From Alphaproteobacteria bacterium (GTDB lineage Bacteria; Pseudomonadota; Alphaproteobacteria; Bin95): 64,000 bases of DNA. The DNA is taken from positions 62,001-126,000 of the forward strand of contig JAJEIH010000049.1 of assembly GCA_022827685.1 (NCBI GenBank). The letters run 5' to 3'. The number at the start of each line of letters is the position of its first letter. Position 1 is the stretch's first letter. The position numbers were made by a program, and so were the translations under genes. Of this stretch, positions 4,339 through 52,549 are shown in pieces. The notes under the pieces are model-generated. The model worked only from the letters and a program-made list of their open reading frames with translations. It was not told where the DNA came from and did no database searches.

Positions 4339-5583
4339 CTACATCGAGTTGGCAATGGCCTCGGCCAGCATTTTCACTGCATCGGCCGACGACATGTCCG
4401 AGTTGAAATGCGCCGTGACCACGTCGGTGATCGCGCCGGATTGCGCGCCGCGCAGCGCCATGCCGTGGGCGTAGCTGGGCAGCAGCGAACCGCTTTCCGA
4501 ACTTGCCGCCATATCCCGGGCGGACAGGTGCGCGCAGCTGTCGAACTCGTCCAGCGCGACGTCCGTACGCGCCGGGATCGAGCCCTTGTTCAGGTTGAAG
4601 ACCTTCTGGAAGTTCTTGCCGACGATCAGCTTGGCCAGCAGCGCCTGGCCGGCCCGCTTGTCCTCTCCGTCCACGTTGAACATCGCGAAGCTGTCCACGT
4701 TGTAGAGGAACCCGTCGCCCGGCGTCGAAGCGCAGAGGAAATCGACCCCGGGCGCCTTCCCGGCAGCCAGGAACTCGCCCTTGGCCCAGTCTCCCATGAT
4801 CTGGAAGGCAGCTTCGCCGTTCATCACCATGGCCGTGGCGAGGTTCCAGTCGCGCCCCGAGAAATTGCGGTCGACATATCCGCGCATGGTGCGCATCTGA
4901 TCGAAGACGGCAACCATCGCGTCCGAAGTCAGGGCATTCTCGTCGAGCTCGACGAACGCCTTCCGGAAGCCGTCGGCGCCCAGAATACCCAGCGCAACCG
5001 CTTCGAACACGGTGGCGTCCTGCCAGGCCTGCCCGCCATGGGCCAGCGGGACGATGCCGGCGGCCTGCAGCTTTTCGGCGGCCGCGTTGAATTCGTCCCA
5101 TGTGCCCGGCATGGCAATGCCATTGGCCGTCAGGATGTCGGCATTGGCCCAGATCCAGTCCACGCGATGAACATTGACGGGCGCGGCGCACCAGGCGCCT
5201 TCGCATTGCATATGGCCGGCAATCGAGGCCGGCAGCACATTGGCCCAGCCTTCGGCCTCGGCCACGGCCGAAATGTCGGCCAATGCGCCTTCTTCATACC
5301 ATTCCTGAATCGCCGGTCCTTTCAACTGAACGGCGGTCGGCGCGTTGCCGGACAGGACGCGCGCGCGCAGGGCGGTCATCGCGGCGTCGCCGCCGCCGCC
5401 GGCCACGGGCATGTCGGTCCAGGTGCCGCCATTGGCGGCAAACTCCTGCTGGAGCACGGCGACGGACTTGGCCTCACCGCCTGAAGTCCACCAGTGCAGA
5501 ACTTCTGCCTGCGGTTCGGCGAAAGCAGAAGATGCGCTAACGAATGCCGCGGCCACCACGGCCGCGAACGCCGGTTTATTCAT
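4339..5583 (-). CDS. gtsA: Glucose/mannose-type ABC transporter substrate-binding protein
   Basis: A 414-residue periplasmic binding protein and first gene of the operon. The start is the ATG at 5583, preceded by GGAGGAA at good spacing and followed by a Sec signal peptide ending near AFA-EP (residue 22). Longer in-frame extensions lack a signal. The mature protein begins VLHWWTSGGEAKSVAVL, typical of CUT1 group 1 binding proteins, and resembles glucose-binding GtsA throughout. The ligand is inferred from family resemblance. The gene is divergent from a small coiled-coil gene across a 238-bp gap. Confidence 0.88.
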   Translation of the reverse strand: MNKPAFAAVVAAAFVSASSAFAEPQAEVLHWWTSGGEAKSVAVLQQEFAANGGTWTDMPVAGGGGDAAMTALRARVLSGNAPTAVQLKGPAIQEWYEEGALADISAVAEAEGWANVLPASIAGHMQCEGAWCAAPVNVHRVDWIWANADILTANGIAMPGTWDEFNAAAEKLQAAGIVPLAHGGQAWQDATVFEAVALGILGADGFRKAFVELDENALTSDAMVAVFDQMRTMRGYVDRNFSGRDWNLATAMVMNGEAAFQIMGDWAKGEFLAAGKAPGVDFLCASTPGDGFLYNVDSFAMFNVDGEDKRAGQALLAKLIVGKNFQKVFNLNKGSIPARTDVALDEFDSCAHLSARDMAASSESGSLLPSYAHGMALRGAQSGAITDVVTAHFNSDMSSADAVKMLAEAIANSM

Positions 5584-16934: not shown

Positions 16935-18565
16935 AGGTCTCCCCGGTCGATCAGGCCGTCATCACCCAGGCGCTGATCGCGGCCGCCGACGAGATGGGGA
17001 TCAAGCTCATCCGCTCGGCCCATTCCCCGGTGGTGCGCGAAGCGCAGGACTGCTCGGCCGCCATCCTCGACCGCAAGGGGCGGGTCGTGGCCCAGGCGGA
17101 CCTCATCCCGATCCAGCTCGGCTCCGTCACGCACACCTTCCGCGCCTGCCTAGAGCACCACCCGCTGGAGACGCTCCGGGAGGGGGATTTCCTCGTCAAC
17201 AACGACCCCTATTCCGGCGGCCAGCACCTGCCGGACATCTTCCTGTTCTCGCCGATCTTCCTGGAAGGCGCGCTGGTCGGGGTCACGGCGACGGTCGTCC
17301 ACCACATAGACCTCGGCGGCGGCGCGCCCGGCCTCAACCCGGATGCCGGCGACGTGCATGAGGAGGGGATCACCCTGCCGCCGGGCCGTTATTCGGTCGA
17401 GCGGGACTGGAACGGCGGCCCGTTCGAGCGGCTGGTGCGCGCCAATGTGCGCATGCCGGAGGCCACCATCGGCGACATCAACGCGCAGTTCGCCGCCAAT
17501 GCCGTGGGCGGCGAACGGCTCAAGGGCCTCTGCCGCAAATTCGGGCGGGAGACGGTGTTCGCGGCGATGGACGAAATGCTGGACTACTCGGAGCGGCGCA
17601 TCCGGGCCGCGATCGCGGCCGCACCCGATGGCAGCTACCGGGGCGAGGCATGGCTCGACGATGACGGCCGGGGCGAGGACCCCGTGCCGGTCCGCGCCAG
17701 GCTCACCATCGACGGGGATTCGATCACGGTGGATTTCGAGGGCACCGCCCCGCAGGTCGCCACCAACATGAACAGCCCCTTCGCCTCCACCGTCTCCTCG
17801 GCCATCGCCTGCATCAAGGCGGTGCTGACGGACCCCGACATCCCGTTCAATGAGGGCGCGGAACGCGCCATTGCGGTCACCGCCCCCTATGGCTGCCTCG
17901 TCAATCCGCGCCCGCCGGCGCCGGTGCGCGCCCGCCTGCTGCCGAGCTACCGGGTGGTGAACGCGGTGATGAACGCGCTTGCCGGCGCCGTGCCGGAGAA
18001 GGTGATCGCGCCCGGTTTCGACACTACCACGGTGAGCTGCATCAGCCACAAGCATGACGGCGGCTACAACATCTATCTGGAGATCTTCGGCGGCGGCTAC
18101 GGGGCGGGCCCCGGCAATGACGGCTGCGATGCGGTGGACTCGATGCTGTCCAACTGCTCGAACATCCAGATCGAGGCGATGGAGAGCGACTATCCGTTCT
18201 TCCGCGTCGAGGACTACAGCCTGCGCGCGGCCTCGGGCGGCGGCGGGCGCCAGCGCGGCGGTATGGGCTTCCAGCGCATCTACCGGATTCTCGACGACGG
18301 CGTGACCTTCGCGACCTACGGGGACCGCTTCCGCTTCGCCGCGCAGGGCCTGTTCGGCGGCGGCCCCGGGGCGAAGGCGGAAACCCTCGTCGAGCGCGGC
18401 GGCCAGCGGATTCCACTCCGCTCGAAGCAGCAATTCCCGCTCGGCCGCGGCGACCGGCTCATCGTCCGCACCGGCGGCGGGGGCGGCTACGGCCCGGCAG
18501 AGGAACGCGATCCCGGCCTCGCCGAGCGCGACCGGCTGGACGGGTTCGAAAGCAATCCGGGATAG
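16931..18565 (+). CDS. hyuB: Hydantoinase/oxoprolinase subunit B
   Basis: A 544-residue HyuB subunit beginning MKVSPVDQAVITQALIAAADEMG. It carries the family blocks SAAILDRKGRVVAQADLIP, NDPYSGGQHLPDI and DVHEEGITLPP, and a Gly-rich end TGGGGGYGPAEERDP. Length is normal. It partners the upstream HyuA for ATP-dependent cyclic amide hydrolysis or a related carboxylation, through an ATGA start-stop overlap. No third (gamma) subunit of the acetone carboxylase type is visible, favouring a hydantoinase or oxoprolinase reaction. Confidence 0.93.
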   Translation: MKVSPVDQAVITQALIAAADEMGIKLIRSAHSPVVREAQDCSAAILDRKGRVVAQADLIPIQLGSVTHTFRACLEHHPLETLREGDFLVNNDPYSGGQHLPDIFLFSPIFLEGALVGVTATVVHHIDLGGGAPGLNPDAGDVHEEGITLPPGRYSVERDWNGGPFERLVRANVRMPEATIGDINAQFAANAVGGERLKGLCRKFGRETVFAAMDEMLDYSERRIRAAIAAAPDGSYRGEAWLDDDGRGEDPVPVRARLTIDGDSITVDFEGTAPQVATNMNSPFASTVSSAIACIKAVLTDPDIPFNEGAERAIAVTAPYGCLVNPRPPAPVRARLLPSYRVVNAVMNALAGAVPEKVIAPGFDTTTVSCISHKHDGGYNIYLEIFGGGYGAGPGNDGCDAVDSMLSNCSNIQIEAMESDYPFFRVEDYSLRAASGGGGRQRGGMGFQRIYRILDDGVTFATYGDRFRFAAQGLFGGGPGAKAETLVERGGQRIPLRSKQQFPLGRGDRLIVRTGGGGGYGPAEERDPGLAERDRLDGFESNPG

Positions 18566-39714: not shown

Positions 39715-41028
39715 ATGCGCATTGCGATGGTGGGCGCGGGCTATGTCGGCCTGGTGACGGGCGCCTGTTTGACCGAGTTCGGCACGGATGCGGTCTGCGT
39801 GGACAGGGACGCGGAGCGGATCGAAAGGCTTCGGCAGGGCGAGATGCCGATCTACGAGCCGGGCCTCGCCGGCCTTGTGGCGCGCAATGTCGAGGCCGGG
39901 CGGCTGACCTTCTCCACCGACCTCGCGGCTGCTGTTGCCGGGGCGGATATCGTGTTCATCGCCGTCGGCACGCCGAGCCGGCGCGGCGACGGCCATGCGG
40001 ACCTCAGCTTCGTCTTCGACGCGGCGCGCGAGGTCGTGGCGGCGGTCCGGGGCTATACCGTGCTGGTGACGAAATCGACGGTGCCGGTGGGAACGGGCGC
40101 CCGCGTCGCCGGGATCGCCGCCGAACTGCGCCCGGACGCCGAGATCGATGTCGTCTCCAACCCGGAATTCCTGCGCGAGGGCGCGGCGATCGAGGACTTC
40201 ATGCACCCCGACCGGGTGGTGATCGGGGCCGAGACCGACCGCGCCCGCGCTGCGATGCAGGAGCTTTACCGGCCGCTCTTCCTGCGCGAGACGCCGATCC
40301 TGTTCACCGACCGCGAGACGGCGGAGCTCACCAAATACGCCGCCAACGCCTTCCTCGCGGTCAAGATCACTTTCATCAACGAGATCGCGGACCTCTGCGA
40401 GCGCGTGGGCGCGGATGTGCAGGACGTGGCGCGCGGCATGGGGCTCGACCGGCGGATCGGCGACAAGTTCCTGCATCCCGGGCCCGGCTATGGCGGCTCC
40501 TGCTTCCCGAAGGACACGCTGGCGCTGACCCGGACGGCCAGCGATGCCGGATCTCCGGTGCGCCTGGTGGAAACGGCCGCCGCCGTCAACGACGCCCGCA
40601 AGAGCGCCATGGCCGGGCGCGTGCTGGAGGCGCTCGGCGGCGATGTGGCAGGCAAGACTGTCGCGGTGCTGGGCCTCGCCTTCAAGCCCAACACGGACGA
40701 CATGCGCGAGGCGCCGAGCCTCGAGCTGGTGCCGGCGCTGCAGGCGGCCGGGGCGAAGGTGCGCGCCTATGACCCGCAGGCGATGGAGACCGCACGCCCG
40801 CTGCTGCCGGATGTCGCCTGGTGCAGCGATGTCTATGACGCCGCCGAAGGCGCTGACTGCGCCGTGCTGGTGACCGAATGGAACGAGTTCCGCGCGGTGG
40901 ACATGGGGCGCCTTCGCAGAGCCATGGCCGCGCCCGTGCTTCTGGACCTGCGCAATGTGTACAAGCCCGCCGAAATGGCGGCGGCCGGCTTTTCCTATCG
41001 CGGCGTCGGCAAGGGGCGGGCGCCGTGA
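39715..41028 (+). CDS. ugd: UDP-glucose 6-dehydrogenase
   Basis: A 437-residue NAD enzyme oxidising UDP-glucose twice to UDP-glucuronate. RIAMVGAGYVGLVTGACLTE is the NAD fold, GYGGSCFPKDTLAL carries the catalytic Cys, and VLGLAFKPNTDDMREAPS is the C-terminal UDP-binding domain. It follows galU by 39 bp, so product and substrate are made by neighbours. UDP-glucuronate feeds capsule, exopolysaccharide or lipopolysaccharide sugars. Its stop overlaps the mutase start (GTGA). Confidence 0.96.
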   Translation: MRIAMVGAGYVGLVTGACLTEFGTDAVCVDRDAERIERLRQGEMPIYEPGLAGLVARNVEAGRLTFSTDLAAAVAGADIVFIAVGTPSRRGDGHADLSFVFDAAREVVAAVRGYTVLVTKSTVPVGTGARVAGIAAELRPDAEIDVVSNPEFLREGAAIEDFMHPDRVVIGAETDRARAAMQELYRPLFLRETPILFTDRETAELTKYAANAFLAVKITFINEIADLCERVGADVQDVARGMGLDRRIGDKFLHPGPGYGGSCFPKDTLALTRTASDAGSPVRLVETAAAVNDARKSAMAGRVLEALGGDVAGKTVAVLGLAFKPNTDDMREAPSLELVPALQAAGAKVRAYDPQAMETARPLLPDVAWCSDVYDAAEGADCAVLVTEWNEFRAVDMGRLRRAMAAPVLLDLRNVYKPAEMAAAGFSYRGVGKGRAP

Positions 41029-43747: not shown

Positions 43748-44431
43748 GTGACAGCCCCCGCGATTCCGCCCGCGCTGTTCGATTTCCTGCGCGAACTGAA
43801 AGAGAACAACGACCGGGCGTGGTTCGAGGCGAACCGGGCGCGCTATATCGGCGACGTGCGCGACCCGATGCTGGACTTCATCGCCGCCTTCGGCGAGCCG
43901 CTGGCGGCGATCAGCCCGCATTTCCGCGCCGACCCGAGGGCGAATGGCGGCTCGCTGTTCCGCATCTACCGCGACACGCGCTTCTCGCGCGACAAGACGC
44001 CCTACAAGACCAATGTCGGCGCGCATTTCCGCCATGCGGCCGGCAGGGACGCGCATGCGCCCGGCTTCTACCTGCATCTGGAGCCGGGCCGCTGCTTCGC
44101 GGGCTGCGGCATCTGGCGCCCCGGCGGCGAGGCGGTGGGGCATATCAGGGACGCCATAGTCGCCCGGCCCCGGGTGTGGAAGCGGATCACCGGCGCTTCG
44201 TTCTGCGAGACCTTCGCGCTGATGGGAGAGTCGCTCAAGCGCCCGCCGCGCGGCTACGACGCCGACCACCCGCTGATCGGGGACCTGAAGCGCAAGGACT
44301 TCATCGCGCGGGCCGAGGTTTCGGAGGCCGACGCCGTAGCGCCCAACTTCCTCGACCGCTTCGCCGGCATCGCGCGCTCCGGCGGCCCCTTCGTCCGCTT
44401 CCTCTCCGAGGCCCTCCGCGTCCCGTTCTGA
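43748..44431 (+). CDS. DUF2461 family protein (TIGR02453)
   Basis: A 227-residue protein. LFDFLRELKENNDRAWFEANR opens it and FRIYRDTRFSRDKTPYKTNVG is the diagnostic DUF2461 block; GFYLHLEPGRCFAGCGIWRP follows. The family is widespread and its biochemical function is not established as far as I know. The start is a GTG at 43748 behind GGGGCGGAGACGCAAC. It is the last rightward gene before the convergent amidase gene. Confidence 0.9.
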   Translation: MTAPAIPPALFDFLRELKENNDRAWFEANRARYIGDVRDPMLDFIAAFGEPLAAISPHFRADPRANGGSLFRIYRDTRFSRDKTPYKTNVGAHFRHAAGRDAHAPGFYLHLEPGRCFAGCGIWRPGGEAVGHIRDAIVARPRVWKRITGASFCETFALMGESLKRPPRGYDADHPLIGDLKRKDFIARAEVSEADAVAPNFLDRFAGIARSGGPFVRFLSEALRVPF

Positions 44432-45408: not shown

Positions 45409-45839
45409 CTCGTCTCCTTCCGGTCGGGGAGGGCGGTCCCTGTTTTGCGCGTATCGCGCGCGGGTGCGGGCGCGCGTTTGCGCCGGCGCGGTTCGCGCGC
45501 CTGATTGCGCGCGCGAGACGGCGAACACACCTCTCCCGTCGGTTCTGCGGGTATTTTTTCGGATCCGGGGGAAGCGGCTCCGGATGCCCCTTCCCTCTGA
45601 TGACAGCATACTACACGATCGGTCAGAGTCAAGCCCCTTTGGAACAAAAAGAGGGCATAGAGGAGATTTTTCATGAAACGCCGGCAGTCTTCGGTGGCTT
45701 CGCAACGCATGCTCCCCAACCATCGCCCCAGCCTCCGAGTCGGGGATGGACCTCGGCTCCCCCGCTCGAAGGCGGGGACAGGCGGGGAAGGAGACTTCCG
45801 GCTGCAACCGGCGACGACACCGATCGGCAGGCGCGGGAC
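45409..45839. other. Non-coding leader and intergenic region between the amidase leader ORF and lysK
   Basis: The left part (45420-45560) is a low-complexity GCGC-rich tract with many short inverted repeats and would be the 5' untranslated region of the amidase transcript. A sigma-70-like promoter lies at 45605-45632. On the plus strand, ATG 45673 has a good AGGAG site, but its 75-codon frame is GC-biased filler that runs into the end of lysK antisense. Bases 45745-45795 contain GGAGCC/GGGGA-type repeats of unclear origin. No RNA gene is recognised. Confidence 0.55.
45605..45632 (-). promoter_or_regulatory. Sigma-70-type promoter for the amidase transcript
   Basis: On the minus strand TTGACT (45632-45627) and TATGCT (45610-45605) are separated by 16 bp, close to the TTGACA/TATAAT consensus, in one of the few AT-rich patches here. 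Transcription would begin near 45597 and run about 190 nt before the leader ORF. No operator palindrome is evident. Confidence 0.6.
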
Positions 45840-47411
45840 TCACGCGGCGGTCCGGGCGAGCGCGCTCCGGATCATCGCCTCGGTCTCGGCCAGCCCGTAA
45901 AGCGCGGCGAAGGAGCCGAAGCGCGGCCCCTGCTTGCGCCCCAGCAGGACTTCGTAGAGGGCGGCGAACCATGTCCTGAGCGGCTCGAAGCCATACGCCT
46001 TGCCGACCGCATAGACTTCGGCCTGCACGGTCTCCCCGTCGGCATCGCGCGGCAACGCCGCCAGCCGGTCGGCGAGGTCCGCCAGCGCCGCCGCTTCCTT
46101 GGCGTCCGGGTCGCGCCAGACCTTCTGCGGGGCGACGAAATCGCGGCAATAGGCAACGGCGAAATCCGCCAGCCGGTCCAGTTGCGGCCGCGTTTCCGGC
46201 GACGTCCCCGGGTCGTAGCGCGAGATGAAGCCCCAGAGCGTGTCCTTGTCCCGCGCGTCGCTGGCCGCCGCCAGGTTGAGCAGCAGCGAGAAGGAAATGC
46301 CTTCCTCCGGCGGCGGCGGCGCGCCGTCATGGATATGCCAGGCCGGGTTTTCCAGCCGCTTCTCCTCTTCCTCGCCCACGGCGCGGGCGAGGAAGGCGCG
46401 GTAGTCGTCCACGGCGCGCGGGATGACGTCGAAATAGAGCCGCTTCGCCGCCTTCGGCTTCTGGAACATGAAGAGTGCCAGGCTTTCTTCCGGCGCGTAG
46501 GTCAGCCACTCCTCGATGGAGAGGCCGTTGCCCCGGGACTTGGAAATCTTCTCGCCGCGCTCGTCGAGGAAGAGCTCGTAGATGAAACCCTCCGGCGGCC
46601 GGCCGCCGAGCGCGCGGCAGATGCGCCCGGAAAGGCGGACGGAGTCGATCAGGTCCTTGCCGGCCATCTCGTAGTCCACGTCGAGCGCGCGCCAGCGCAT
46701 CGCCCAGTCGGCCTTCCATTGCAGCTTGCACCCGCCGCCCGTGACCGGCCGTTCAACCCGTGCGCCGCTCTCGTCTTCATAGACGACGGTGCCGGCGTCC
46801 GGGTCGCGGTGGAGGATGGGCACCTGCAGCACGACGCCCGTCTTCGGGCAGACCGGCAGGAAGGGGCTGTAGGTCTCCCGGCGCTCGGGCCCGAGCGTCG
46901 GCAGCACGATTTCCATGACCGCGTCATAGGCCCGCAGCACGCCGAGCAGCGTCCCGTCGAACCGGCCGGAGCGATAGCACTCGGTCGCGCTCACAAATTC
47001 GTAGTCGAAGCCGAAACGGTCGAGGAAGGCGCAAAGCCGGGCGTTGTTGTGGGCGCCGAAGCTCTCATGCGTGCCGAAGGGGTCGGGCACCGAGGTCAGC
47101 GGCTTGCCGAGATGGGCCGCGAGCGCTTCGCCGTTCGGCACATTGTCGGGCACCCGGCGCAGGCCGTCCATGTCGTCGGAAAAGGCGAAGAGCCGGGTGG
47201 GCACGTCGGAGAGTTCGGCGAAGGCGCGGCGCACCATGGCCGTGCGAGCGACCTCGCCGAACGTGCCGATATGCGGCAGGCCGGAGGGGCCGTAGCCGGT
47301 CTCGAACAGCGCATAGCCCTTGTCCGGAACGCCTCCGCCGAGGCGCGCCAGCAGCTTGCGCGCTTCCTCGAACGGCCAGGCGCGGGCGGAGCTTGCAGCA
47401 TTGTTGGGCAT
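45840..47411 (-). CDS. lysK: Lysyl-tRNA synthetase, class I
   Basis: A 523-residue class I LysRS, the archaeal-type enzyme with a Rossmann catalytic core, unrelated to the class II LysS of most bacteria. LPHIGT (45-50) is the HIGH signature and [13 protein letters not shown] the KMSKS loop. The C-terminal third is the helical anticodon-binding region. It charges tRNA-Lys in the cytoplasm. Several Alphaproteobacteria use this class. ATG 47411 begins [14 protein letters not shown]. No lysS is seen in the window. Confidence 0.95.
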
Positions 47412-47860: not shown

Positions 47861-50575
47861 ATGCCGCGCGCGCCGGCCCTGGTCGCGAGCCCGGCGCGGG
47901 CCGTCTGGCTGGAACCGGACAGTCCGCCCGAGACGCTTGCGCCCACGGAGGCGGCGGTGCGCGCGCGCGGCCGCCCGCCGCTTGCCGTTCACGGGCCGGC
48001 GACCTCCCGGCGGCTGGACGCCGAGGCCCGGCCCTTCCGCAGCTACGACCTGCTGGAGCTGTTCGCCTTCGTGCGCCCGGCGCAATTCTGCCTGCCGACG
48101 CCCAACGGCCTCGCCGACGCTGCCGGCCTGCCCCGCCCGGCGACGCTGGAGCGCGCGGCGGAGACGCTGTTCGGCGCCGCGCGGGCGCTGCTCGCCGAGC
48201 TCGCCCGCATGGAGGATCCGGGCGGGGCCGCGGCCGACCTTGCGAGCGATGCGGCGGAAGCCGGCTGGCTCTGGGGGCCGTTCGTGCTGGCGGCGCTCGG
48301 CGTATCGGAGCGGCGCCCGGCCGGCGGCGCCGGCTTCGCCGTCTGGGACCGGTTGCCGCTCTGGGCCGAATTCGCGCCGGAACCGCAGCCGTCCAACCGA
48401 CCGGTCGAGCCGGAGGAGGCCCGCCGCCGGCTCGCGGAGATGCTGGGCCCGGATGCCGAGGACCGGCCGGGCCAGGCGGACTACGCATCGGCCGCCACGG
48501 GCGCCTTCCAGCCGCGCGAGCGGGCCGGCGAGCCGCATATGGTGGTGGCCGAGGCCGGCACCGGGGTCGGCAAGACGCTGGGCTACCTTGCACCGGCGAG
48601 CCTCTGGGCGGAGGCGAACGAGGCGCCCGTCTGGGTCTCGACCTACACCCGCAACCTCCAGCACCAGATCGACGGCGAGCTGGATCGGCTGATCCCCGAG
48701 CCGGCCGCCAAGCGCCGCCGCGTCGTGCTGCGCAAGGGCCGGGAGAACTATCTCTGCCTGCTCAACCTGGAGGAAGCGGTGCGGACGGCCCGGCTGACGT
48801 CGAACGAGACCGTGCCGCTGGCGCTCGCCGCGCGCTGGGCGGACGCGACCCGCGACGGCGACATGACCGGCGGCGACTTTCCCTCCTGGCTCCCGGACCT
48901 GGAGGGGGCGGCGCGCATACGCGGGCTCGGCGACCGGCGGGGCGAGTGCCTCTATTCCGCCTGCGGCCACTACCAGCGCTGCTTCATCGAGCGGGGCATA
49001 AGGCGCGCGCGGCGCGCGGACCTCGTCATCGCCAACCATGCGCTCGTCATGGTGCAGGCGGCGCTGGGCGGGCTCGACGATTCCTGGCTGCCGACCCGCT
49101 ATGTGTTCGACGAGGGCCACCATCTCTTCGATGCCGCCGACAGCGCCTTCTCGGCCGAGCTTTCCGGGCTGGAGACGGCGGAGCTGCGCCGCTGGCTGCT
49201 GGGGGCGGAAGGCGGCGGCTCGCGCGCAAGGGGGCTGAGGCGCCGCGCCGAGGACCTGGTGCCGGACGGGGGCGAGGCGGCCGGGGCGCTCGCCGAGGCC
49301 GGCCGGGCGGCGACCGCGCTTCCGGCGGAGGGCTGGCTCGGCCGCCTCGCCGCGGGCGCGCCGCAGGGGGCGGTGGAACGCTTCCTCGCCATCGTCCGCC
49401 AGCAGGTGCTGGCCCGGGCGCCCGGGCGCGCAAACGGCGCCTACGGCCTCGAATGCGAGTGCCGGCCGCCGGTCGAGGGGCTGGTCGAGGCCGCCCGCGC
49501 GCTCGGGCAGGCCCTGGAGGCGCTGCGCAAGCCGCTCGGCGTGCTGCGCCGCGCGCTGCTGGCCCGGCTGGCGGACGAGGCCGAAGACCTCGAGAGCCGC
49601 GAGCGCATCCGCATCGAGGCGCTGGCGCGCAGCCTCCACCGCCGCGCCGAGACGCAGCTTGCGGCCTGGTCGGCCATGCTGGAGGCGCTCGACGCCGAGC
49701 CGCCGGAAGCGTTCGTGGACTGGTTCGGGCTGGAGCGCGCGCAGGGCCGCGAGCGCGATGTCGGCATGCACCGGCGCTGGATCGATCCGACGACGCCCTT
49801 CGCCGCCGAGGTGGCGGAACCCGCCCACGGCCTGCTCGTCACCTCCGCGACGCTCCGCGACAGCGCGCGGGAGCCGGAGGAGGCCTGGCAGGCGGCGGAA
49901 ATGCGCACCGGGGCCCGGCATCTCGCAGCCCCCGCCGTACGCGCCGCCGCGCCCTCCCCCTTCGACTATCCGGCCCAGACGCGCGCGCTGGTGGTGACGG
50001 ATGTGCGCCGGGACTCGGCCGCGCAGGTGGCGGCGGCCTGCCGCAGCCTGTTCCTGGCGGCGGGCGGCGGCGCGCTCGGGCTCTTCACCGCCGTCGCGCG
50101 GCTTCGCGCCGTTCACGCGCAACTGGCGGGGCCGCTGGACGCGGCGGGCATCCCGCTCATCGCCCAGCATGTGGACCGGATGGATGTCGCGACGCTTATC
50201 GAGATTTTCCGCGCCGAGCCGGATTCGTGCCTGCTCGGCACGGACGCGGTGCGCGACGGCGTGGACGTGCCGGGCCGCGCGCTCCGCCTGATCGCGTTCG
50301 ATCGCGTGCCCTGGCCGCGGCCGACCATCCTGCACAAGGCGAGGCGCACGCATTTCGGCGCCGGCTATGACGACATGCTGACCCGCCTCCGGCTCAGGCA
50401 GGCCTTCGGCCGCCTCGTGCGCCGCCGCGACGACAGGGGCGTCTTCGTGCTGCTCGACCCGGGAATGCCGACGCGCCTCGCCGGCGCCTTCCCCGAAGGC
50501 GTCGCACTGGAGCGCGTCGGGCTGGCGGAGGCTTGCCGGATCGTCAGCGGGTTTGTGGGGGAAAGCGGGGCGTAG
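47861..50575 (+). CDS. DinG/Rad3-family ATP-dependent DNA helicase (XPD-like, Fe-S)
   Basis: A 904-residue superfamily 2 helicase. Walker A is GTGVGKT (233-239) and Walker B is DEGH (417-420). Cys299, Cys363, Cys368 and Cys374 between them are positioned as the [4Fe-4S] ligands of XPD/DinG helicases. The C-terminal helicase lobe includes GLFTAVARLRAVHAQL and a final Arg finger region RQAFGRLVRR. About 225 residues precede Walker A, longer than in DinG. ATG 47861 has a GGAGAG site; ATG 47837 lacks one. Likely roles are unwinding of R-loops, G-quadruplexes or damaged forks. Confidence 0.92.
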   Translation: MPRAPALVASPARAVWLEPDSPPETLAPTEAAVRARGRPPLAVHGPATSRRLDAEARPFRSYDLLELFAFVRPAQFCLPTPNGLADAAGLPRPATLERAAETLFGAARALLAELARMEDPGGAAADLASDAAEAGWLWGPFVLAALGVSERRPAGGAGFAVWDRLPLWAEFAPEPQPSNRPVEPEEARRRLAEMLGPDAEDRPGQADYASAATGAFQPRERAGEPHMVVAEAGTGVGKTLGYLAPASLWAEANEAPVWVSTYTRNLQHQIDGELDRLIPEPAAKRRRVVLRKGRENYLCLLNLEEAVRTARLTSNETVPLALAARWADATRDGDMTGGDFPSWLPDLEGAARIRGLGDRRGECLYSACGHYQRCFIERGIRRARRADLVIANHALVMVQAALGGLDDSWLPTRYVFDEGHHLFDAADSAFSAELSGLETAELRRWLLGAEGGGSRARGLRRRAEDLVPDGGEAAGALAEAGRAATALPAEGWLGRLAAGAPQGAVERFLAIVRQQVLARAPGRANGAYGLECECRPPVEGLVEAARALGQALEALRKPLGVLRRALLARLADEAEDLESRERIRIEALARSLHRRAETQLAAWSAMLEALDAEPPEAFVDWFGLERAQGRERDVGMHRRWIDPTTPFAAEVAEPAHGLLVTSATLRDSAREPEEAWQAAEMRTGARHLAAPAVRAAAPSPFDYPAQTRALVVTDVRRDSAAQVAAACRSLFLAAGGGALGLFTAVARLRAVHAQLAGPLDAAGIPLIAQHVDRMDVATLIEIFRAEPDSCLLGTDAVRDGVDVPGRALRLIAFDRVPWPRPTILHKARRTHFGAGYDDMLTRLRLRQAFGRLVRRRDDRGVFVLLDPGMPTRLAGAFPEGVALERVGLAEACRIVSGFVGESGA

Positions 50576-50634
50576 ACGGGCGCAAACTTCGTTCGCCTCC
50601 TTGCCAGGAGGCCTCGCGGACGATTGCTCTCCGC

Positions 50635-51123
50635 CTAATCCGGCCCCGCGGAATCGAAGAGCGGCGTCAGAATATCCCTGATTCGCATGACGCTGGCGAT
50701 TTCCCCATTGTCATCCGCAAAGAAAAATTTGCCGCTACCATAGGCGATTTCTTTGCCGATGAATTGAAAATCATGTTCCCGATAGGTTTCAAATCTTCCC
50801 AGCACGATGGTCAAACTGTTTATTTTCCCGGCTTTCCTGCGAGCGATCAGGGAGAATTCTTCGCATGAATAACAATCGACGATAATGTTACGAATGTCGT
50901 CGATCGGGAAATGAATTTTCTCACCGGTGCTAACGTAATCCGTGTCGAGATACTGCCTAAGCTCCGAATCGTCTTCGTCCACGGAAAGATGGTCCGAGGA
51001 AAACGAGATGCAACAGGCTTGTTTCTCGTTTGCTGCCACGTATTCATGACCCAATGCGCTGTCCGGGTCGGTCAACTTGTACAGTGTGAATTCGGACGAA
51101 GGGGCAGGGTTTTTCACAGTCAT
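50635..51123 (-). CDS. Low-GC orphan protein of unknown function
   Basis: A 162-residue acidic protein I do not recognise. It is predicted mostly beta with a final helix: EFTLYKLTD, CISFSSDHLSV, KIHFPIDDIRNIIVDC, FSLIARRKAGKINSLTIVLG, SGKFFFADDNGEIASVM, then RIRDILTPLF. Such alternation with hydrophobic strands is compatible with a PH-like barrel, but that is speculation. Base composition is strikingly low: 50701-50820 has 51 G+C in 120 bases by hand count, against 46 in 60 at 50401-50460. This points to recent acquisition. No signal peptide or membrane helix is seen. Confidence 0.7.
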   Translation of the reverse strand: MTVKNPAPSSEFTLYKLTDPDSALGHEYVAANEKQACCISFSSDHLSVDEDDSELRQYLDTDYVSTGEKIHFPIDDIRNIIVDCYSCEEFSLIARRKAGKINSLTIVLGRFETYREHDFQFIGKEIAYGSGKFFFADDNGEIASVMRIRDILTPLFDSAGPD

Positions 51124-51480
51124 AACTGCTCCCGGAATTTCTTAGTCGGCCAAGGAGAGCTCTTCAAACGTCTGGACGAATCCGAAATTATGTCGACCGC
51201 TGCGCCGAATCAAGCCGGATACAAAGCGGGGGTAGCAGCGGCGCGACACGCCACGGACGCCCGACGGCCGGACATAATTCGTGCGGGCGAGCCTCCAGGC
51301 CGTCTGCGGCCCGCGGGCTCGACGCCTTTGTGTTGGCGACGGGCTCCGGATCGCCCCGGGTGGACCTTGTGCCGCAGCCGGTCCCTGTCCTTGGGACCGG
51401 ATGACAGCCGGCGCCGGGGCTGTTACCGTCCGCCCGAACCGCATTAGGGGCTCGATCCGGAGCCGCCGCGAGGGACGGGC
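51124..51480. other. Intergenic region beside the low-GC gene
   Basis: This 357-bp gap has no gene I can support. Its left end (to about 51200) continues the lower GC content of the orphan gene and probably holds its promoter. The right half is GC-rich and includes GGGCTCGACGCCTTTG, which recurs at 51869 inside the decarboxylase-family gene; I take this as chance or a scar. A 285-codon minus-strand frame crosses the gap, but it is the antisense shadow of the decarboxylase-family gene. Confidence 0.5.
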
Positions 51481-51711
51481 ATGGACATCAGTTCCGAACT
51501 GGTTGCAATCCTCGGCGTCGGAATCGCTCTGGCCGGGTTGATGCTGGCCGGGCAGCAGAGGACCGACAAGCGCATGGACCGGCTCGAAGACCGCCTGATC
51601 GCCGTCGAAAAGGGCCAGGCGCGAATGGAAGGCAAGCTGGGGTTCATCGAAAACTATATCCTGGGCCGGAACGCCGCCCCGGACGAACGGGCGGAGGCCC
51701 CGGCGGAATAG
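51481..51711 (+). CDS. Small one-helix membrane coiled-coil protein (paralogue C)
   Basis: A 76-residue protein: hydrophobic helix [20 protein letters not shown] (4-23), then a short charged coiled-coil QRTDKRMDRLEDRLIAVEKG, and the tail ILGRNAAPDERAEAPAE. The N-terminal motif and RN...APAE ending match paralogues A (5822-6076) and B (47444-47707). The coil is the shortest of the three, with about three heptads and no clear internal DNA repeat. Function is unknown. It sits between the low-GC orphan gene and the decarboxylase-family gene. Confidence 0.72.
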   Translation: MDISSELVAILGVGIALAGLMLAGQQRTDKRMDRLEDRLIAVEKGQARMEGKLGFIENYILGRNAAPDERAEAPAE

Positions 51712-51775
51712 TCCTGCTCGAACTCGCTTTCTCACAAACGAAAATGCCTTCCGGGCTTCCGGAGGAGGAATCGCC

Positions 51776-52534
51776 ATGACCGAATCCAATGACCGCACGG
51801 AACTGCGCGAAACCGGGGCGCGGCTTGCGGAAGAACTGGGCCTGCCGGTGCCTTCGGGGGCGCCGGGGCTCGACGCCTTTGCGCTGGAAGCGGGCTTCGG
51901 CTCGCTGCTGGCGGACCCGGCGCTGGCGCCGGCCGACCGCATGGTGGCGGTGCTCTCTGCGCTCGCGCAGAAGGACCGGCAGGGAGACATTGCCGCGCAC
52001 ATAAGGCCGGCGGTGAAGGCCGGGCTGGAGGCGCGCGAGATCCGCGAGATTTTCGTGCAATGCGGCCTCTATGGCGGGCTGCCGATGGCGGCGCATGCGC
52101 TCGGTACGCTGAACGCGCAGCTGGGCTATCCGGACCGGGAGGAGGAAGATACGCGCGACCTCGCCGCGCTGGAGGCGGACGGGCGCGCCACGATGCACAA
52201 GCTGCACGGCGAGCGCGCCGAGACGGGCTATGCCGCGCCCGGCAATGCGGGCTCGGCCGGCCTCTACCGCATCGCGATCCTCTACGGCTACGGCGCGATC
52301 TGGCACCGGCCGGGCCTCTCGCACCGGCGGCGCATGATCGTGGCGCTGGCGAGCATGGCGGTGCTCGGCCTGCATGACACGCTGGCGAAGTTCGCGGCCT
52401 CCGCGCGCGCCATGGGCCTCGCGCCGGCCGAGATCGCCGCCGCCATCGCCCAGACCGCGCCCTATGCCGGTTTCCCGCCCGCCCTCAACGCGCTGGGCCG
52501 CCTCGCCGACGTGCTGGCGGAGCCGGGCGGTTGA
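51776..52534 (+). CDS. Carboxymuconolactone decarboxylase-family protein (two-domain)
   Basis: A 252-residue all-helical protein with two CMD-like repeats. Domain 1 contains EIREIFVQCGLYGGLPMAAHALG; domain 2 has LSHRRRMIVALASMAVLG and a matching EIAAAIAQTAPYAGFPPALNA. The CxxC of AhpD peroxidases is missing, so a thiol peroxidase role is unlikely; a lactone decarboxylase or isomerase role is possible. GGAGGAGGAATC gives a good ribosome site. It converges on the MFS transporter gene. Confidence 0.85.
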   Translation: MTESNDRTELRETGARLAEELGLPVPSGAPGLDAFALEAGFGSLLADPALAPADRMVAVLSALAQKDRQGDIAAHIRPAVKAGLEAREIREIFVQCGLYGGLPMAAHALGTLNAQLGYPDREEEDTRDLAALEADGRATMHKLHGERAETGYAAPGNAGSAGLYRIAILYGYGAIWHRPGLSHRRRMIVALASMAVLGLHDTLAKFAASARAMGLAPAEIAAAIAQTAPYAGFPPALNALGRLADVLAEPGG

Positions 52535-52549
52535 CGGACTGCGCCGCGC

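Follow-up and report, generated by a model that had tools for sequence, protein, structure and literature searches.

The gene examined here lies on a contig of 145,205 bp, within an analysed stretch of 64 kb that is referred to as the window (positions are those of the window unless the contig is named). It occupies the minus strand between a helicase gene, which we take to be DinG-like, and a small coiled-coil-like gene designated paralogue C, beyond which a carboxymuconolactone decarboxylase (CMD) family gene follows (Table 1). An earlier sequence-only reading had given the same coordinates, strand and length for the ORF, which is called the ORFan below, and had named the same two neighbours, and all of these were borne out. 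Paralogue C had no Pfam match above cut-off, and its DNA similarity to two other sites of the window is weak (E 0.005 each). The repeats within 50400-51800 comprise one GC-rich direct repeat of 10 nt and three inverted pairs of 12-18 nt, none of which bounds the slot in which the ORFan lies. A search with 51100-51420 against 15 genomes at E <= 0.001, in which scoring was limited to 40 first-look candidates per genome, returned nothing beyond the query itself and the CMD-like fragment, a decayed copy of 68 nt that is perhaps left over from an earlier duplication or exchange. The slot has no recognised mobility gene; its other ORFs, with weaker coding signal, lay outside the family scan.

Table 1. 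Features of the ORFan locus in window coordinates.
Feature	Start	End	Strand	Remarks
Helicase (Helicase_C_2) stretch, left flank	47900	50575	+	Syntenic in the genus; start putative
Variable slot	50577	51397		821 bp; no DNA match to the corresponding interval of five congeners
Perfect 6-bp hairpin, GCCTCC-ttgcca-GGAGGC	50595	50612		Between the convergent helicase and ORFan stops; lacks a T-run
ORFan gene	50635	51123	-	ATG ORF; 162 aa; 48.7% G+C; pI 4.6
GGGAG, Shine-Dalgarno-like	51129	51133	-	Precedes the ATG by 5 nt; identified by inspection of the sequence
Degenerate copy of CMD gene stretch 51850-51917	51299	51366	+	75% of 68 nt; right side of the slot, upstream of paralogue C
Small coiled-coil-like gene (paralogue C), right flank	51481	51711	+	76 aa; no Pfam match above cut-off
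CMD family gene, right flank	51776	52534	+	Syntenic in the genus

The G+C content of the ORFan (48.7%) compares with 76% in the helicase stretch 47900-50575 and 73% in the CMD gene. By codon position the values are 50/37/59% for the ORFan, 80/56/92% for the helicase stretch and 77/53/89% for the CMD gene, which amounts to a GC3 of 59% against 89-92% in the two flanking genes. The sequence-only reading had pointed to this anomaly from hand counts, which proved exact (51 G+C in 120 bases at 50701-50820; 46 in 60 at 50401-50460). The lowest 489-bp segment of the window starts at 50701 (47.2%) and is overlapped by the ORFan, and the next lowest elsewhere has 57.5%. On the whole contig, which has 68.9% G+C, the ORFan lies about 4 SD under the mean of 296 non-overlapping segments, five of which fall below 55%, and there are lower spots at contig positions 4401 (36.8%) and 40371 (46.2%). 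The low-GC ORFan is thus striking locally, yet it is one among a few such islets on the contig. Three of these islets, all outside the window, carry ORFs of their own. An ORF of 428 aa (C47 3940-5226, in L072) with no Pfam family at E <= 0.01 covers the G+C minimum of the contig (36.8% at 4401). The stretch at 40371 is overlapped by a minus-strand DUF433 ORF (E 1.2e-12; C47 40385-41338, L074 385-1338), DUF433 having, as we understand it, an antitoxin role, and an ORF over a third stretch (52.8% at 17721; C47 17260-18399, in L072) shows a weak NurA-domain match below cut-off (E 0.003).

The coding potential of the ORFan was assessed with a codon model trained on 43 genes of E. coli K-12, whose G+C content, near 50%, is similar to that of the ORFan and was the reason for the choice. 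The ORFan frame scores +0.09 bits per codon, the best of the six frames, the other five ranging from -0.15 to -0.54 with the in-register antisense frame at -0.15, and it stands above all of 1000 shuffles (-0.40 +/- 0.09, maximum -0.10). For calibration, the 32 of the 43 training genes with at least 600 nt were trimmed to the length of the ORFan; they score 0.25 +/- 0.10 with a minimum of -0.02, values that are biased high by training-set membership. In each of the 32 the sense frame exceeds the antisense frame, by at least 0.15 (0.33 +/- 0.11), and the difference for the ORFan is 0.25. The ORFan also shows periodicity (chi-square p = 1.4e-6), and the adjacent 51124-51397 shows none (p = 0.96), with codon-model scores of -0.31 to -0.60. 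An ORF of at least 162 aa occurs in 8.9% of 2000 dinucleotide shuffles of 50577-51397; therefore, ORF length by itself is weak evidence of coding, and codon content is counted as the stronger.

That frequency of long ORFs among the shuffles would also fit a different reading, in which the ORFan is not a gene but a frame that either arose by chance in low-GC DNA, imported or non-coding, or was held open through coding on the opposite strand. The in-register antisense frame has one stop only, and the plus-strand ORF 50533-50868, which starts within the helicase gene and runs antisense to the ORFan, reaches -0.01, a value at the low end of the range for real genes (another plus-strand ORF, 50911-51447, scores -0.31). 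Moreover, a promoter and terminator scan around the slot detected no promoter-like site and no terminator. However, the codon model favours the minus strand in register, just as it favours the true strand in every known gene of the calibration, and a Shine-Dalgarno-like GGGAG precedes the ATG. We therefore consider a spurious frame very unlikely. Judged by composition, that is, by codon model and periodicity, the ORFan is probably a real protein-coding gene.

As the sequence-only reading had suspected, the product belongs to no family recognisable in Pfam, NCBIfam, PHROGs or PADLOC. No match was found in plasmids or phages by tblastn, nor in viral contigs or genome contigs, where the scans require an exact stretch of eight residues and would show close relatives while missing distant ones. 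The gene is present once in its own genome and is absent, at E <= 0.01, from the seven other genomes of the genus and from six other genomes of the same family that belong to other genera (completeness 75-100%). Wider samples of 95 relatives, 385 genomes of the class and 398 of the phylum, which overlap and include the own genome, yielded no accepted relative; in the phylum sample only the own genome was returned at E <= 0.001. Two marginal hits with E of about 0.005, one in genome G053 (in the 95- and 385-genome samples) and one in G247 (in the 385-genome sample), were taken for chance matches, as they stand at noise level and the ORFs concerned resemble, by eye, a leucyl aminopeptidase and an ABC ATPase. 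The gene is thus an ORFan in the sense that it has no detectable homologue in the databases searched, a set to which metagenome collections did not belong. Nothing marks it as a phage gene, since no homologue appeared in phage or viral collections (with viral scans that detect close relatives only), or as an anti-phage defence gene, for which a PADLOC model match was sought and not obtained.

With a pI of 4.6 and a net charge of about -13, the product is acidic; it contains no strongly hydrophobic stretch (19-residue hydropathy maximum 0.7) and is therefore probably cytosolic. The compact beta-rich domain proposed in the sequence-only reading did not find confirmation: a single-sequence AlphaFold model has pLDDT 38 and pTM 0.31 and is unusable, and Foldseek with this model gave no match at E <= 0.001. 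The possibility was weighed that the protein is a remote member of a known fold, such as the cyclic-nucleotide-binding domain or another beta-barrel regulator domain. A phmmer search against the PDB matched residues 82-162 to PrfA chains, with E values from 0.05, and even the failed model contains nine strands and two helices. However, the best E for the reversed sequence is 0.2, which places 0.05 near noise, and the likeness to PrfA was rejected; together with the lack of a Foldseek match at the threshold just given, this leaves a remote known fold most improbable.

The place of the ORFan was then compared across the genus by locating the 3' part of the helicase gene and the CMD gene in the relatives. 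Among eight genus genomes, including the own one (G000), the two genes lie on one contig in six (G000, G002, G003, G004, G005 and G007). Other genes follow the helicase in G001, and the G006 contig breaks off within the CMD gene. The flanks are syntenic in the five congeners, with 89-94% DNA identity. On the left, similarity to the window is lost at the helicase stop codon or beside it (50560-50584, but 50544 in G003). On the right, it returns at 51398-51420, immediately ahead of paralogue C; in G003, which also lacks paralogue C, it returns at 51762. Between these limits G000 has 821 bp with the ORFan, G005 has 715 bp with a gene named here after its motif RHAxxRxxQRG, G004 has 488 bp with the same gene, and G002 has 1747 bp with a 332-aa helix-turn-helix (HTH) gene followed by the RHAxxRxxQRG gene. 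G007 has 619 bp there, with no recognisable gene and three ORFs of at least 50 aa, and G003 about 13 bp. When the five longer slots were compared with one another, that of G000 matched none of the rest. The slots of G002, G004 and G005 match mutually over the RHAxxRxxQRG gene (88-93%) and over little else (short edge matches), and that of G007 shares just 24 nt at its edge, with G004. The locus is therefore a turnover slot, with conserved syntenic flanks and content that differs between relatives. The description of the gene as isolated, made in the sequence-only reading, holds for the gene itself, but its place is a variable slot common to the relatives.

In four contig comparisons (about 9-19 kb each, confined to plus-strand pieces of at least 150 bp) the longest of the breaks in collinearity falls at the slot every time, and other breaks are present. 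A shorter one near 45683-45840 recurs in all four, G002 carries an insert at window position 44430 (1095 bp, 45% G+C, with a 321-aa ORF; L047, contig C458 about 519-1613) where the window has 12 bp, and G005 carries an insert of 688 bp after the CMD gene. Because of these breaks and inserts, turnover is not confined to the slot. Just after the CMD gene (window position 52537), where the window has about 2 bp, there is an ORF that appears lipoprotein-like by eye, of 218 aa in G005 and 205 aa in G006; most of the G005 ORF was scanned, and no Pfam match was obtained.

One copy of the RHAxxRxxQRG gene is present in each of G002, G004 and G005, and at E <= 1e-5 it was found in none of the 17 other genomes searched, G000 included. 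Its pairwise dN/dS values of 0.21, 0.64 and 0.48 on 116 codons are compatible with purifying selection; the ORFan itself, being a single sequence, allows no such estimate. The proteins have no significant match in Pfam, NCBIfam or PADLOC, no plasmid match and no viral match, and the structure predicted for them, three helices with a hairpin, is a weak model at pLDDT 57. We presume a resemblance of this small gene to DUF4258-type proteins, for which Pfam and NCBIfam gave no confirmation. The HTH gene of G002 is the only one among the other slot genes examined to have family matches: HTH_3 above cut-off, phage_RstR and the Y4mF antitoxin below cut-off, and PADLOC capH at E 2.6e-7, all lying over the HTH domain.

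Since the 821 bp match none of the five congeners while the flanks are syntenic, we regard the ORFan as a lineage-specific gene in a turnover slot. The suggestion of a recent import, made in the sequence-only reading, gains support from this comparison: the gene is lacking in the genus and family genomes, the content of all five other slots differs, and same-place low-GC orthologues, which would have pointed to long residence had most relatives carried them, were sought and none was found. We consider it quite probable that the ORFan is a real gene of foreign composition, gained after the split from the sequenced congeners in a slot of gene turnover. By composition and distribution it was probably acquired horizontally, and its entry would date from after the divergence of the lineage from these congeners. 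The likely route would be homologous recombination in the conserved flanks, which would swap the content of the slot.

Differential loss from the congeners, instead of gain, is possible. In its fuller form this alternative makes the ORFan an old resident of the genus that was lost or replaced in the other lineages and owes its composition to function or low expression rather than to import. The other assembled slots number only five, which leaves room for parallel loss. However, the GC3 gap to the CMD and helicase genes, the absence of the ORFan from all seven congeners and the presence of another slot occupant common to three of them speak against long residence, and we judge it decidedly unlikely. 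A local assembly error at the slot is, strictly speaking, also possible (the genome consists of 167 contigs).

With respect to function, the proposal of an immunity protein, anti-defence factor or effector in the sequence-only reading found no support in family, partner gene or usable fold, and nothing contradicted it either. No family match and no partner gene were recognised that would make the ORFan an immunity or antitoxin gene (the other ORFs of the slot lay outside the family scan), and the part of the neighbourhood examined for a defence-island context consists of its immediate flanks, the helicase and CMD genes. Cargo proteins that are small, acidic and cytosolic often act as inhibitors by binding a partner. 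The product may accordingly be a small acidic accessory protein that binds a partner, of the inhibitor, immunity, antitoxin, or anti-phage or anti-defence type, its gene travelling as stand-alone cargo. This assignment is a guess from context and charge, made because the product is small, acidic and apparently cytosolic and because an HTH gene stands beside a small gene in the slot of G002; we hold it tentatively and think it somewhat doubtful. That pair is a toxin-antitoxin-like cargo in the same slot of a congener; however, the ORFan DNA matches neither of its genes, and the ORFan stands alone, on the other strand. A bolder version seems to us unlikely: in this probably sponge-associated genus the slot would serve specifically for the exchange of small conflict genes (toxin-antitoxin, immunity, anti-defence), and the ORFan, acting alone by partner binding, would be the first member to be seen of a new protein family of that type.

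In the portions of the literature consulted, ORFans of E. coli are described as genes without database homologues that are AT-richer, short and lineage-restricted (PMC2275313; PMC1559721), and the origin of bacterial ORFans is presented as debated (PMC1559721). The ORFan of the window resembles those portrayed in the part of PMC2275313 considered here in all these respects, and nothing essential differs, with the addition that the relatives' occupants of the same slot are known as well. The slot is also comparable to the HGT hotspots between core genes outlined in PMC5635113, in that it has conserved flanks, turnover of content and no recognised mobile element; however, it is tiny (0 to 1.7 kb), and the likeness is drawn without applying the definition of a hotspot used in that paper. 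The relatives G002 to G007 are metagenome-assembled genomes labelled 'Alphaproteobacteria bacterium', four of which have 'jk18' isolate names. As jk18-named bins appear in a study of Ircinia sponge microbiomes, according to the part of it considered (PMC9531527), a sponge origin for the genus is likely by inference.

A lone, recently acquired gene of this sort is ordinary in bacterial genomes. If the preferred reading of a gained, foreign-composition gene is true, the locus would add to the instances in which a single ORFan has entered a genome through a small slot and no mobile element is visible. The slot comes with a natural comparison set of six genomes, and it would be a place in which to seek new small accessory genes in this genus.
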